A DNA stretch of 53,794 nt from Gemmatimonadaceae bacterium (GTDB taxonomy: Bacteria; Gemmatimonadota; Gemmatimonadetes; Gemmatimonadales; Gemmatimonadaceae): positions 1-53,794 of the forward strand of contig JALHNZ010000020.1 in the NCBI GenBank assembly GCA_022843265.1. Direction: 5' to 3'. The stretch's first letter is position 1; each line of letters starts with the position of its first letter. Made by a program: the position numbers and the translations under genes. The notes beneath the pieces were generated by a model. That model made no database searches, was not told the DNA's origin, and saw only the letters and a program-made list of their open reading frames with translations. Shown piece after piece: positions 20,005-25,428 of the stretch.

Positions 20005-21558
20005 ATGATTACTCGCGCAACTACACGCCGCCTCGCGGTGGGATGTCTCATTATTGGCTCGGCGACGGTCGCCAGCCTTGTGTCGGCGCAGGCGCCGACC
20101 GGTCTCCTGTCGCTCAGCGTGCGGCACAATACGCTCAAGAACACCGCGCGTCCCACGGGTGAAATCAAGGCGCAGGTCGATTCGCTCGACCGACTGATCG
20201 CCCAGGCGAATCGGCTGGGACGCTCGGCGGAGGTGCGTCGACTGTACGCGCACGCCAATACGTTGCTGACACGCCGTCAGTGGACGGCGGAGACAGAGTA
20301 CGCGGCATCACTGGTGCTGCGCACCGATCGGCAGGTCGTCGATCCGTCCGTGCGTTGGCCGGTGCGGGTGGAGCAAATTTTCGCACCGTCAATCGAACTC
20401 ACTCGACCGCTCACGGCTCGCATCACGCTTCGGCAGCGCGCCGCCGGTACCGCGGCCAACGCGCCACTCGCGGTCGTGAAAGAGCTCGGCACATTCGACG
20501 GCGTGCCGCGCGATTTGCGTGACGCACCGTTCGTGATCGATGCGAACTTGCAGGGCATCGCAGACGGCACGTACCAGGTGTCCGTCGACATGCTCGACAG
20601 CGCGCGCACACTTGGCAGTGCCTCACTAAGCATTGTGGTGCGAAATGGACTCAACACCACCGTGGCGCGACTGCAAGAAGCCGCAGACGCGGCGAGCGAA
20701 CCGCTGCGTTCCGATCTGTTGTTTCCGGTGGACCGTTTGCGTCACGTGAACAACAGCCGCATCGCCCTGGGCACGTTCAACGCCGCACGTGCATTTGCGG
20801 CGGCCGAATCGTTGCTCGTGCGCATGAAAGCGTCACGCGATCCGTGGGCGGGTCGCACTGGTGACCTCAAGCGACACTATCTGCTCGAGGGTGCAGGCGA
20901 GATAATGCCATATCGTCTCTATATCCCGAAGTCGTACAAGCCCGGCACCGCGATGCCACTCATTATTGCGTTGCACGGACTTGGCGCGACAGAAGATTCG
21001 TTCTTTGATGCGTACGGACGTGTGTTACCGAAGCTCGCGGAAGAGCGCGGATACATTGTGGCTGCGCCGCTGGGTTATCGAGTCGACGGCGCGTACGGTG
21101 TGTCGCTCACCGGAAGTCGTGATGCGGCCACACAGCGTGTGCAGGCGCTGAGCGAGCAGGATGTACTGCAGGTTTTTGAGCAGGTCAAGGCACTCTACTC
21201 CGTAGACGCAGACCGGGTATTTCTGATGGGTCATTCCATGGGCGCCATCGGCACGTGGGGCATGGCGGCCAAACGTCCGGAGCCCTGGGCGGGGCTCGGC
21301 GCCTTCTCCGGTTTTGGCGTGGCGAGTACGGCGTCAACCATCAGGTCGATTCCGCAGTTTGTGGTGCATGGCGACGCGGATCCCACGGTGGCCGTGAGTG
21401 GTTCGCGCACCATGGTGGCCGCGCTCAAGGAAGTGGGCGCCAACGTGCGCTACATCGAAGTACCGGGCGGTGATCACTCGAACGTGGTCGCGCCTCATTT
21501 GCCCGCGATGTTCGATTTCTTTGATGCGATTCCGCGACGCACGGCCAGCCCGCGATGA
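20005..21558 (+). CDS. Exported alpha/beta-hydrolase esterase or peptidase
   Basis: A 517-residue secreted protein. The signal peptide ends ...ASLVSA with Gln at residue 29. The N-terminal 290 residues have no recognised domain. The C-terminal half is an alpha/beta hydrolase of the PHB-depolymerase/S9-like type: oxyanion region LIIALHGLGATEDSFF, nucleophile elbow GHSMGAIG (Ser), acid Asp in VVHGDADPTV and catalytic His in GGDHSNVV. It probably cleaves an ester or peptide outside the cytoplasm. It starts at ATG 20005, and its stop overlaps the start of the SBP56-like gene as ATGA, so the two are coupled. Confidence 0.82.
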   Translation: MITRATTRRLAVGCLIIGSATVASLVSAQAPTGLLSLSVRHNTLKNTARPTGEIKAQVDSLDRLIAQANRLGRSAEVRRLYAHANTLLTRRQWTAETEYAASLVLRTDRQVVDPSVRWPVRVEQIFAPSIELTRPLTARITLRQRAAGTAANAPLAVVKELGTFDGVPRDLRDAPFVIDANLQGIADGTYQVSVDMLDSARTLGSASLSIVVRNGLNTTVARLQEAADAASEPLRSDLLFPVDRLRHVNNSRIALGTFNAARAFAAAESLLVRMKASRDPWAGRTGDLKRHYLLEGAGEIMPYRLYIPKSYKPGTAMPLIIALHGLGATEDSFFDAYGRVLPKLAEERGYIVAAPLGYRVDGAYGVSLTGSRDAATQRVQALSEQDVLQVFEQVKALYSVDADRVFLMGHSMGAIGTWGMAAKRPEPWAGLGAFSGFGVASTASTIRSIPQFVVHGDADPTVAVSGSRTMVAALKEVGANVRYIEVPGGDHSNVVAPHLPAMFDFFDAIPRRTASPR

Positions 21559-22865
21559 AACGCAACACGGCGTGTGTGACGAGGTCTGCCAGCGGACCCG
21601 CGAGTGTTCGCTCGAGTGCGCATCGCGTTCGCCGCTTCGGCGCGCTTGCGCTCTCCGTGTTCGTATCGGCGTGCACACAAACTGCCGACGCACCGCAGCT
21701 CGATGGCGCCGCCGCCGAAGCAAGTAATCGGGACTACTTGTACGTGTGGACGGCCGCTGCAGACACCACGCAAGCTGATTTCCTGACCGTGCTCGACGTG
21801 ACGGAAACTGCGGCACGCTACGGTTCACTTGTCACGACGCTGCCGGTGCCAGGCCTCAAGAACGGTCCGCACCATACCGAACATGAGATGCCGGCCGATG
21901 CGCAGTTGTTTGCGAATGGGTTTGCGTCCGGGCAAACGGTGGTGTTCGATCTGCGCAATCCCACGACGCCGCGCATTGCCACCACGTTCGGCGATGTTGC
22001 AGGGTTCGCGCATCCGCACTCGTTCGTGCGAATGCCTGGTGGCAACGTGCTCGCCACGTTCCAAATGCAACACGATTCCGCCGGCATGAAACCGGGTGGT
22101 CTTGTGGAGCTGACGCCGGCCGGTGGATTGGTGCGAAGCCGCTCGGCCAACGCCCCAGGCATTGATCCGGGGCTGCGCGTGTACAGCGCGGCGGTGGTGC
22201 CACCGTTGGATCGTATCGTGACAACCACGAGCGACATGATGGCGGACTCTCCGGCCTCAAGAAACCTTCAGCTGTGGCGACTGTCGGACATGTCGCTGTT
22301 GCACACTATCACGCTGCCTAACGGTCCGCGCGGTGATGAGTCGGGTCTCACCGCCGAGCCGCGTGTGCTCGCCGATGGTCGCACCGTGCTGGTGTCCACC
22401 TTCAACTGCGGACTCTATCTGCTTGATGGTCTCGACACGGACTCACCGTCCGGGCGTCTGGTGGCGTCATTTCCGCGCATGGAAGGGGAGTACTGTGCCA
22501 TCCCGGTAATTGTTGGACGCTACTATCTGGTAACCGTGCCTGCGTGGAACGCGGTGGTGAGCCTCGATATTTCCGATCCAGCCGCGCCGCGCGAAGTGAG
22601 TCGACTCACGCTCGGCGAGAAGGATATTCCGCACTGGATTGCGGTGTCGCCCGATCAGAAACGCGTGGTGATCACCGGGTACGCCTCGCTGGAGCACCTG
22701 GTTCAGATCGCGACGTTTGACGCCGCGAGCGGGCAACTCGCACTCGATGAAAGATTTCGCGAAGCCGACAGTCTGCCGCCGGGATTTCGGATGGACAACA
22801 AGACCTGGCCGCACGGCGGGTCCACGAAAGGTGTTCCGCACGGCGCGGTATTCAGTCGGCGGTAG
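21555..22865 (+). CDS. SBP56 / methanethiol-oxidase-like lipoprotein
   Basis: A 436-residue exported lipoprotein (lipobox VFVSAC, Cys about residue 40) with a beta-propeller that resembles the selenium-binding protein 56 family. Family-like stretches are DFLTVLDV, LPVPGLKNGPHHTEHE (His 106, 107 and 110), GFAHPHSFVRMPGGNVLATF (His 153 and 155) and IPHWIAVSPDQKRVVITGY. Characterised SBP56 proteins, including bacterial methanethiol oxidase and human SELENBP1, use copper and oxidise methanethiol. The His clusters here fit a metal site. Activity on a thiol is inferred from family only. It sits between the esterase (ATGA overlap) and a copper oxidase 54 bases downstream. Confidence 0.7.
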   Translation: MKRNTACVTRSASGPASVRSSAHRVRRFGALALSVFVSACTQTADAPQLDGAAAEASNRDYLYVWTAAADTTQADFLTVLDVTETAARYGSLVTTLPVPGLKNGPHHTEHEMPADAQLFANGFASGQTVVFDLRNPTTPRIATTFGDVAGFAHPHSFVRMPGGNVLATFQMQHDSAGMKPGGLVELTPAGGLVRSRSANAPGIDPGLRVYSAAVVPPLDRIVTTTSDMMADSPASRNLQLWRLSDMSLLHTITLPNGPRGDESGLTAEPRVLADGRTVLVSTFNCGLYLLDGLDTDSPSGRLVASFPRMEGEYCAIPVIVGRYYLVTVPAWNAVVSLDISDPAAPREVSRLTLGEKDIPHWIAVSPDQKRVVITGYASLEHLVQIATFDAASGQLALDERFREADSLPPGFRMDNKTWPHGGSTKGVPHGAVFSRR

Positions 22866-22919: not shown

Positions 22920-24836
22920 ATGTCAGGTGCCGTTACCGCTCTGCTCAGTGTGGTGCTCAATGCACAACTTTCGGCCACGCTCCCGCGCGTGCCGCTGCCC
23001 AAGGCTGCGCCGAGTGTTGCGCGCGCGATCACACATCAAAATCGCACGGCCGCTGGTACGCTGAGCGGCAACACGTTACGCGTGGCCATCGATGTGCTTG
23101 AAAGTGCGTGGAAGCCTGAAGGCAACAATGATCCTGAAGTGCCGATTCTGGCCTTCGCCGAGCGTGGCAAGAGCCCGTCTGTGCCCGGCCCGCTGGTGCG
23201 GGTAGCAGTCGGCACCGAGGTCGTACTCACACTGCGTAACCGCTCCGATTCGGCACTCACCGTAAGCGGTTTGCGGCCTGGGGCTGGCGTGATCGCGGAT
23301 ACCGTGCACCTCGCGATTGGCGCAACGCGCGAACTTCGCTACGTGATGAAGGAAACCGGAACGTTCTACTACTGGGGAGCCTTCGCGGGCAACACCATGG
23401 GCGATCGCTTCTGGAAAGACAGTCAGCTCAACGGCGCGATCGTAGTTGACGAACCGGGCGATCGAATGCGTGACGAGATCCTCGTCATGAGCGAGTGGTT
23501 TCTCGACTATCCCGACGGACGACCGTTTGAAGTGGTGTCGGTGATCAACGGCAAAGGTTGGCCGCACACCGAGACCATTCAACTACAGCAAGGCGATTCC
23601 ACGCGCTTCCGCGTGGTCAATGCAACCGTGCTCCATCATCCGCTCCACCTGCACGGCTTTTTCTACAACATTGAGTCGAAAGGCGACGGCTATTCGGACA
23701 AACAGGTGCCGCGCGAGCAACGCCATTTGTCGAACACCGATCTGATTAATCCGAGTGGCACGGTGACATTTGCGTTTGTGCCGAACACGCCGGGCAACTG
23801 GCTGTTTCATTGTCACTTTGCATTTCACGCCGACGAAACCACGTCGCTCGTTGGTTCGCCGGCCGATTCGGCCGCGGCAGCGCAGATGCACGCGTTGCAC
23901 ACCCCGGGCCGGGCAGGAGACCACGCGATGGCTGGTCTTGTGATCGGCATCAAGGTGTCCCCGAGTGCTGATTACATCGAAACACGCACTGCGAACGCGC
24001 GTGCGATGCGACTCTTTGTACAAAAGAGTCCCGGAAAACTATTCACCGGCGAACCCGCGATTGGCTTCGCATTGCAATCCGGTGACAGCGCGCCGGCTCG
24101 CGATTCGGTGGCGCTTCCCGGGCCTGTGCTTGAACTGCGTCGCAACCAACCCGTGCGCATCGTGGTGCGGAACAATCTCGACGAGCCGACTGCCGTGCAT
24201 TGGCATGGGCTCGAGATTGAAAGTTTTCCCGATGGGGTGCCGCACTGGAGCGGGCTCGGCGATCGAGTTTTCAAGGAGATCGCACCCAACGATTCGTTCG
24301 TTGCCGAGTTCGTGCCGACACGCTCGGGAACGTATCCGTACCACTCGCATCTCAACGATCGGCACCAGATCAACTCCGGTATGTACGGCGCGCTGCTGGT
24401 CACCGATGGACCGCGTGACCTCACACGGGATCACCTGATCGTCACGGGTGGCGGCGGCCCCGAGGTACGTCGCAAATACGAAAGTCCGTTCGCCCTTGTG
24501 AACGGAAGTCGCAATCCTCGACCCCTTCGTTTAACCGTGGGCGAGACGCATCGGTTGCGTATTGTGACCATTCACCCTGACTGGCGCGTAGCGTACACCC
24601 TCAAAACCGATTCGACCGTGGCGCAGTGGCGAGCCATCGCCAAGGATGGCGCGGATTTGCCGCGCTCGCTCACCACGATGCGCAACGCGCACGTGGTGAT
24701 GGGGCCCGGCGAAACGTCAGACTTTGAGTTCACACCGACCCACATTGGCGAGTGGCGTCTCGAAGTGCGCACCGTAGATCCGGGCTGGTACATCCCGCTC
24801 ACGGTGATCGTGGTGCCGAAAACAGGCTCGCCCTAG
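22920..24836 (+). CDS. Four-cupredoxin multicopper oxidase with swapped copper-site order
   Basis: A 638-residue exported oxidase. AGGAG lies 7 bases before the ATG, and a short signal peptide ends at LNA with Gln 16. There are four cupredoxin-like segments. Canonical oxidases have HxH motifs HWHG and HSH in the first domain, and HPxHLHG and HCHxxxH in the last. Here HHPLHLHG (239-246) and HCHFAFH (297-303) are in the second segment, while HWHG (427-430) and YHSH (474-477) are in the third. The first segment has TVSG (114-117) and YYWGAF where HWHG and YHSH should be. The fourth has RLEVR where HCH should be. All eight trinuclear-cluster histidines are thus present, but split between internal domains. 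The axial type 1 ligand position is Thr 308. Confidence 0.88.
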   Translation: MSGAVTALLSVVLNAQLSATLPRVPLPKAAPSVARAITHQNRTAAGTLSGNTLRVAIDVLESAWKPEGNNDPEVPILAFAERGKSPSVPGPLVRVAVGTEVVLTLRNRSDSALTVSGLRPGAGVIADTVHLAIGATRELRYVMKETGTFYYWGAFAGNTMGDRFWKDSQLNGAIVVDEPGDRMRDEILVMSEWFLDYPDGRPFEVVSVINGKGWPHTETIQLQQGDSTRFRVVNATVLHHPLHLHGFFYNIESKGDGYSDKQVPREQRHLSNTDLINPSGTVTFAFVPNTPGNWLFHCHFAFHADETTSLVGSPADSAAAAQMHALHTPGRAGDHAMAGLVIGIKVSPSADYIETRTANARAMRLFVQKSPGKLFTGEPAIGFALQSGDSAPARDSVALPGPVLELRRNQPVRIVVRNNLDEPTAVHWHGLEIESFPDGVPHWSGLGDRVFKEIAPNDSFVAEFVPTRSGTYPYHSHLNDRHQINSGMYGALLVTDGPRDLTRDHLIVTGGGGPEVRRKYESPFALVNGSRNPRPLRLTVGETHRLRIVTIHPDWRVAYTLKTDSTVAQWRAIAKDGADLPRSLTTMRNAHVVMGPGETSDFEFTPTHIGEWRLEVRTVDPGWYIPLTVIVVPKTGSP

Positions 24837-24840
24837 CGAG

Positions 24841-25428
24841 CTACCCGAATACTTCGGACACCGGCAGGCGGAAGCCTGGAAGCACCGCCTCGCCGTCAAT
24901 GACATCATTCCGGGAGAGCGCGGAAACGGTACCATCAGCGCGGTGCACGCGAACTTCCTTTGCCTTTGGGTCGACAACCCAGACGAGTTCAGTGCCAGCG
25001 GCGAGCCAGGACGCGACTTTTCGTACCGAACGCACTCGGCTCTCTGACGGCGACAACACTTCGACAGCCAGATCCGGTGCCATCTCGGCGTACCCAATCA
25101 CGGGCTCACTCGGCCAGCGGCTGGCGCGTACAAACGCCACATCCGGTCCGCGGACCGTGTCGGGATTTCGCTCGAGTGTGAAGCCCGTTTCAGCAGCCAG
25201 CGCACGCCCCAACTTTTCCTTTCGCACGAAACTGCCGATGGTGATGAGAAGCTGCGCGGCAAGGTCGCCGTGCTCCAGCCCGGCGGGCTCGCGCACGAAG
25301 AGTCGCCCGCGCACAAGTTCGGTGCGTGCGTTGTCGATCGGGTAGGAGAACAGCTGCTCCGCAGTGAGCAGAGCCGTTGAGAACGGTCGCACGATGAACA
25401 TCCGGCGCGCTGCACGTTTGGGTCGCAT
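24841..25428 (-). CDS. Uma2-family putative nuclease (DUF820)
   Basis: A 195-residue protein of the Uma2/DUF820 family, a PD-(D/E)xK restriction-endonuclease-like fold. The pattern is visible: ELVRGRLFVREPAG, then HGDLAAQLLITIGSFV, then GPDVAFV (catalytic Asp), then DLAVEVLSPSES (Glu-x-Leu replacing E-x-K), and a C-terminal VWVVDPKAKEVRVH. Family members are widespread and mostly uncharacterised. It is a single gene, convergent with the multicopper oxidase with only 4 bases between stops. Confidence 0.85.
   Translation of the reverse strand: MRPKRAARRMFIVRPFSTALLTAEQLFSYPIDNARTELVRGRLFVREPAGLEHGDLAAQLLITIGSFVRKEKLGRALAAETGFTLERNPDTVRGPDVAFVRASRWPSEPVIGYAEMAPDLAVEVLSPSESRVRSVRKVASWLAAGTELVWVVDPKAKEVRVHRADGTVSALSRNDVIDGEAVLPGFRLPVSEVFG

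Follow-up and report, generated by a model that had tools for sequence, protein, structure and literature searches.

Can a multicopper oxidase (MCO) in which each half of the chain has lost part of its copper ligands still bring together one complete active site, and how would such a protein arise? The question is raised by one uninterrupted reading frame of 638 codons on the forward strand (positions 22920-24836) of a 53,794-nucleotide stretch of DNA from a Gemmatimonadaceae bacterium (contig JALHNZ010000020.1, assembly GCA_022843265.1), which we call the window. A ribosome-binding-like GGAG lies directly 5' of the ATG. The product consists of four cupredoxin domains, D1 to D4.

A four-domain oxidase with one complete set of copper ligands

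Pfam profiles match the protein at residues 207-307 (Cu-oxidase_2) and then at 399-496 (Cu-oxidase_3). Against the curated NCBIfam models for CueO, CopA and ascorbate oxidase it scores far under the cut-offs, the best being TIGR01480 with 122 bits against a required 479. Judged by its hydrophobic N-terminus, a putative signal, the protein is probably exported; the N-termini of homologues are likewise hydrophobic, and two of them have a Cys in a lipobox-like setting. The gene and its domains are as follows.

22920..24836 (+), gene of the four-domain MCO, 638 aa; upstream GGAG, 106 aligned homologues
22923..22973 (+), hydrophobic stretch at the N-terminus (residues 2-18), probably an export signal; helix at 2-18 in the AlphaFold2 (AF2) model
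23019..23459 (+), D1, N-type cupredoxin with trinuclear ligands lost; its profile matches D3 at 98.4% and also N-type domains from two-domain MCOs
23469..23966 (+), D2, C-type cupredoxin carrying the type 1 copper and one half of the trinuclear site; Cu-oxidase_2, second domain of two-domain MCOs at 99.5%
23991..24419 (+), D3, N-type cupredoxin with the other half of the trinuclear site; Cu-oxidase_3 at residues 399-496, N-type profiles at no less than 99.7%
24420..24827 (+), D4, C-type cupredoxin without copper ligands; D2 at 97.3%, second domain of two-domain MCOs at 97.4%

The copper-binding motifs and their remnants were located by aligning 107 family members, the window protein among them.

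23253..23273 (+), relic of HWHG in D1, residues 112-118, ALTVSGL (mostly TLTVHGL in the family); Gly117 in 104/107
23358..23381 (+), relic of GTxxYHSH in D1, residues 147-154, GTFYYWGA; Tyr151 in 107/107, His lost
23634..23657 (+), HHPLHLHG in D2, residues 239-246, with type 1 His240 and trinuclear His243 and His245; placed by the 107-member alignment
23808..23828 (+), HCHFAFH in D2, residues 297-303, with trinuclear His297 and His299 and type 1 Cys298 and His303; invariant in 107/107
24198..24209 (+), HWHG in D3, residues 427-430, with trinuclear His427 and His429; His in 107/107
24339..24350 (+), YHSH in D3, residues 474-477, with trinuclear His475 and His477; His in 107/107
24762..24770 (+), E615-V616-R617 in D4 where HCH is expected; D2-D4 profile alignment

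All eight trinuclear histidines, forming four HxH motifs, fall within D2 and D3. The window protein has the full ligand set of the MCO superfamily (eight trinuclear His together with the type 1 Cys and two His), and these eleven active-site positions are kept across the 107 members with one exception, a single row at position 243 (His at 240 and 245 in all 107, at 243 in 106). Their counterparts in D1 and D4 are variable. The D1 consensus retains outlines of the missing motifs, reading TLTVHGL where HWHGL would stand and GTYYYW where GTFIYHSH would stand, and His still occupies position 116 in 43 of the 107 sequences; HCH is absent from D4 in every one of them.

Re-reading the protein residue by residue reproduced exactly the motif positions given in the original prediction, both the substitutions in D1 (T114/S116 and W152/A154) and the intact HHPLHLHG, HCHFAFH, HWHG and YHSH. 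The loss of the late site in D4 also holds, V616 and R617 standing opposite Cys298 and His299 in the D2-D4 profile alignment. The same pattern recurs across the 107 members, in agreement with the proposal that the complete trinuclear site comes from the two central domains, C-type then N-type.

The type 1 axial ligand and an inserted His-rich loop

Thr308 had been put forward as the axial ligand of the type 1 copper. That assignment fails: Thr308 lies in the column where three-domain controls carry Met (Cys+10), and across the family this column holds A, V, L, S, Q, R, T and others. A better candidate lies further along the chain.

23928..23930 (+), Met337, probable type 1 axial ligand; Met in 106/107
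23829..23927 (+), inserted His-rich loop, residues 304-336, between His303 and Met337, probably disordered; pLDDT <50 at 312-335

Met337 is followed by Gly339 (107/107) and Leu340 (104/107) and then by the last strand of D2 (341-347). The resulting MxGLV motif has its equivalent in same-phylum two-domain enzymes, where MxGMV occupies the same place before the strand; the two-domain type of this phylum reads HGMFGMV at the position matching Met337, and in the solved two-domain laccase 8aip the HCH motif leads to a Met-Ser-Gly-Val-Phe run. On the basis of this conservation and the equivalent Met-containing motif, the axial ligand is very probably Met337, an assignment by motif and topology within a poorly predicted loop. 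Among two-domain MCOs of Gemmatimonadota, L141, L145, L147 and L149 carry His at Cys+10 and Met at Cys+12 (HAESEHGMFGMV); this may be a variant form of the type 1 axial loop.

Across the family the loop between His303 and Met337 has a median length of 27 residues (range 9-49). His makes up 10.6% of its residues vs 1.7% in the remaining chain; 106 of 107 loops contain at least one His and 102 at least two. A flexible His-rich segment near the type 1 site weakly suggests a part in capturing metal ions (copper, manganese or iron) or in copper loading.

Predicted packing of the central domains

AF2 run on the full-length chain with a 39-row alignment returned one confident fold (pLDDT 89.4, pTM 0.89), and D2-D3 modelled alone gave a pTM of 0.84; AF2 was trained on many MCOs and may favour canonical packing. 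The best PDB matches to the full model in Foldseek are six-domain proteins, namely factor V, ceruloplasmin, factor VIII and MnxG (9bxa_A). Among the first 22 rows TMq is 0.55-0.63; three-domain laccases reach 0.31-0.34, low values that we attribute to their different domain order.

VIA-align superposes the D2-D3 model on human ceruloplasmin 195-561 (Z 19.4, 3.2 Å, 268 residues), on bilirubin oxidase over the chain range 36-476 (Z 16.4, 3.7 Å, 227 residues), on MnxG 626-1032 (Z 13.4, 3.5 Å, 273 residues; this range may not be the copper-bearing pair), and also on CueO and laccases. The pseudo-twofold symmetry of the interface makes the mapping of D2 and D3 onto individual reference domains ambiguous in these superpositions. 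Single-domain matches in the same listing align about 125-135 residues. Because the 227 residues aligned with bilirubin oxidase exceed one domain and the matched range runs from D1 into D3 of that enzyme, we infer that D2 and D3 are packed as a domain pair of the kind that forms a trinuclear site. The predicted structure is in this respect consistent with the expectation that the four HxH motifs meet at one interface.

Relationship to known multicopper oxidases

Reviews divide MCOs into two-, three- and six-domain classes (PMC7036934, PMC13151041). Two-domain MCOs form homotrimers, and every trinuclear site in them lies where D2 of a subunit meets D1 of the adjacent one (PMC13151041). The window protein has four cupredoxin domains and so falls outside their definition of exactly two, but it shares much with the type B members (SLAC/Ssl1, CjMCO): a unit of one N-type and one C-type domain, the latter with the type 1 copper; a trinuclear site between a C-type domain and the N-type domain of the next unit; and an MxG[LM]V axial motif. 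Whereas those enzymes assemble separate chains into a homotrimer that has three sites, the four-domain MCO has two fused units and one site, as well as the His-rich loop (median 27 residues) before the axial Met. Three-domain laccases, CueO, CotA and bilirubin oxidase share the ligands and the kind of domain pair that makes up the trinuclear site; they are arranged, however, as N-type, linker and C-type domains with a D1/D3 site, and they have no N-type copy of a second unit. Ceruloplasmin, hephaestin and factor VIII are also chains of N-type/C-type pairs, and ceruloplasmin D2-D3 packing superposes on the model (Z 19.4), but they have six domains and a D1/D6 trinuclear site.

The closest precedent for the placement of the site is found in larger proteins. 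An analysis by Vasin et al. (PMC3600357) of six-domain oxidases, the algal Fox1/Fox2 and the bacterial MnxG-like enzymes, put the trinuclear site in domains 2 and 3, and the type 1 site of the bacterial MnxG-like enzymes in domain 2. The four-domain MCO resembles MnxG-like oxidases and Fox1/Fox2 in having a D2/D3 trinuclear site and type 1 copper in D2, but these have six domains and the bacterial ones are 1217-2681 aa long (PMC3600357), compared with about 600-650 aa for four-domain MCOs. Of the original proposal that a reversed motif order may mark a distinct subclass, the order itself stands and its novelty does not, given the six-domain precedent (PMC3600357). What is new here is the four-domain size class, not the D2-D3 placement of the site. 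No description of a four-domain MCO class was found in the open-access literature searched.

A family centred on Gemmatimonadota

Relatives at E <= 1e-60 occur in 53 of 150 genomes sampled from Gemmatimonadota, and a D2-D3 profile search of the same genomes again gave 53, the agreement marking a family with a clear edge. Named relatives belong almost entirely to this phylum, with some in assemblies labelled Acidobacteria/Terriglobia, Rokubacteriota and Steroidobacter. Sampling the phylum of a Terriglobia member yielded 4 carriers among 149 genomes, and that of the Rokubacteriota member 1 among 95, the centre genome included in each case. The family is common in Gemmatimonadota and rare in the other phyla sampled. 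Cultured Gemmatirosa kalamazoonensis has one family gene, carried on a 1.1-Mb plasmid. The source genome of the window encodes a second four-domain MCO (L036:1124-2989), 41% identical to the first, and other genomes have up to five copies, which suggests lineage-specific expansion. Chance and an assembly or frameshift artefact were considered and rejected, as dozens of independent assemblies carry this architecture in one unbroken frame.

Every four-domain member has C-type before N-type motifs, the reverse of the three-domain order; all remaining MCOs with recognisable motifs in the same genomes (two- or three-domain) have N-type before C-type. No second HCH or HWHG was found in the long open frames of the family loci. 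In a tree of order-normalised copper domains the four-domain proteins are monophyletic (UFBoot 100), so that the expectation of a separate clade of same-order homologues is borne out. Two-domain MCOs are their sister group at 87, a placement from a single tree in which the branch is long (1.14), the sample limited to the phylum and six-domain sequences absent.

Flanking genes differ from locus to locus: no Pfam family occurs in more than 2 of the 75 upstream or 69 downstream neighbours. Transcription of the gene is therefore probably monocistronic or in contexts that vary between loci, and the neighbourhood gives no hint of a substrate. In the window it is flanked by the following genes.

20005..21558 (+), secreted-looking alpha/beta hydrolase, Abhydrolase_2, PHB-depolymerase-like
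21555..22865 (+), upstream SBP56-like gene (methanethiol oxidase family), Pfam score under cut-off
24841..25428 (-), Uma2-family (PF05685) gene, convergent with the MCO gene, 4 bases between them

The last four bases of the hydrolase gene are shared with the start of the SBP56-like gene, which suggests that these two form an operon. SBP56-like relatives are present in 22 of 81 Gemmatimonadota genomes, beside a four-domain MCO in only one other contig (L028/L094); elsewhere the two are unlinked, and the SBP56-like gene was not retained as a guide to function.

Origin of the four-domain architecture

The ancestry of the four domains can be read from their profiles. In hhalign comparisons D1 pairs with D3 (98.4%) and D2 with D4 (97.3%); the other combinations give 29.7% (D1-D4), 21.0% (D3-D4), 47.0% (D1-D2) and 84.5% (D2-D3). 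Against same-phylum reference domains, D1 and D3 go to N-type domains and D2 and D4 to the second domain of two-domain MCOs. For D4 the match is 97.4% to the latter vs 93.8% to the second domain of three-domain enzymes, which the D1 profile matches at 3-32%. This pairing points to a tandem two-domain unit rather than a permuted three-domain laccase; at the level of sequence profiles, the four-domain MCO is a tandem duplication of an N-type, C-type unit. Together with ligand conservation it agrees with the earlier description of two fused two-domain halves with reciprocal site loss.

We consider it likely that this exported protein originated when two copies of a type B-like two-domain oxidase were fused head to tail. 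With two subunits joined, exactly one trinuclear contact would become intramolecular, the one where the second domain of the first copy (D2) meets the first domain of the second (D3). At this interface the eight His would have been retained, as would the type 1 copper next to it (His240, Cys298, His303 and probably Met337), and the outward D1 and D4, facing no partner, would have lost their copper sites; the lack of a partner after fusion would explain why exactly these two decayed. By analogy with established MCO chemistry, electrons from the substrate would enter at the type 1 copper in D2 and pass over the His-Cys-His bridge to the trinuclear site between D2 and D3, where O2 would be reduced to water. 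The analysis shows the sequence pattern, how well it is conserved, the domain homologies, the clade and the predicted packing; copper loading, this electron path and oxidase activity are inferred.

Other histories would give a similar arrangement. The protein could derive from a six-domain MnxG/Fox1-type oxidase (site in D2-D3) by loss of domains 5 and 6, a reading to which the identical position of the trinuclear site and of the D2 type 1 copper (PMC3600357) and the six-domain proteins heading the Foldseek list, MnxG 9bxa_A among them, lend some weight. Yet no six-domain relative turned up among the MCO loci of the genomes examined, the family loci hold no second HCH or HWHG, and the tree, built without six-domain sequences, sets the family beside two-domain MCOs (87); we regard such a truncation as unlikely. 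Circular permutation of a three-domain laccase, its D1-D2-D3 duplicated and trimmed to D2-D3-D1'-D2', would produce the series empty, C-type, N-type, empty in one event, with outer domains that never carried copper, and D3-D4 is indeed structurally like D1-D2 of three-domain oxidases (6vow 1-268, Z 25.1). It predicts, however, that D1 should resemble D4 and the three-domain D2, and the observed values (29.7% and 3-32%) contrast with 98% for D1-D3; moreover, D1 bears HWHG and YHSH relics and D4 is nearer to the two-domain D2 (97.4%) than to the three-domain D2 (93.8%). This origin is highly improbable.

Two further readings concern what the protein does with its ligands. Its active site might form between chains, from D2 of one molecule and D3 of another, in the manner of the two-domain homotrimers to which it is related (PMC13151041), but the AF2 models of the single chain and of D2-D3 alone both show a confident intramolecular pair that matches known trinuclear-site pairs, and we find this arrangement improbable. 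That the protein is a non-catalytic copper-binding or scaffold protein with an MCO fold is hardly credible: half of this fold has already lost its sites, but the type 1 and trinuclear ligands are kept in essentially all 107 aligned members. SufI and factor V are examples of MCO folds whose function was lost; scaffold homologues, in contrast to this family, lose their copper ligands.

Implications

In the most far-reaching interpretation, which we offer as speculation with the odds against it, these proteins would constitute a fourth structural class of MCO (four-domain, D2-D3 site), a surviving relative of the intermediate in the fusion of two-domain trimers into six-domain MnxG, Fox1 and ceruloplasmin, and a dedicated metal oxidase by virtue of the His-rich loop. 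As a common and monophyletic group, the four-domain MCOs close a gap in the path that has been proposed to lead from two-domain trimers to larger enzymes made of one chain, and they show directly which sites survive when one subunit contact remains. As a small single-chain protein with MnxG/Fox1-type site placement, the four-domain MCO may be easier to study than the large enzymes, and its presence in cultured Gemmatirosa kalamazoonensis makes the family experimentally testable.
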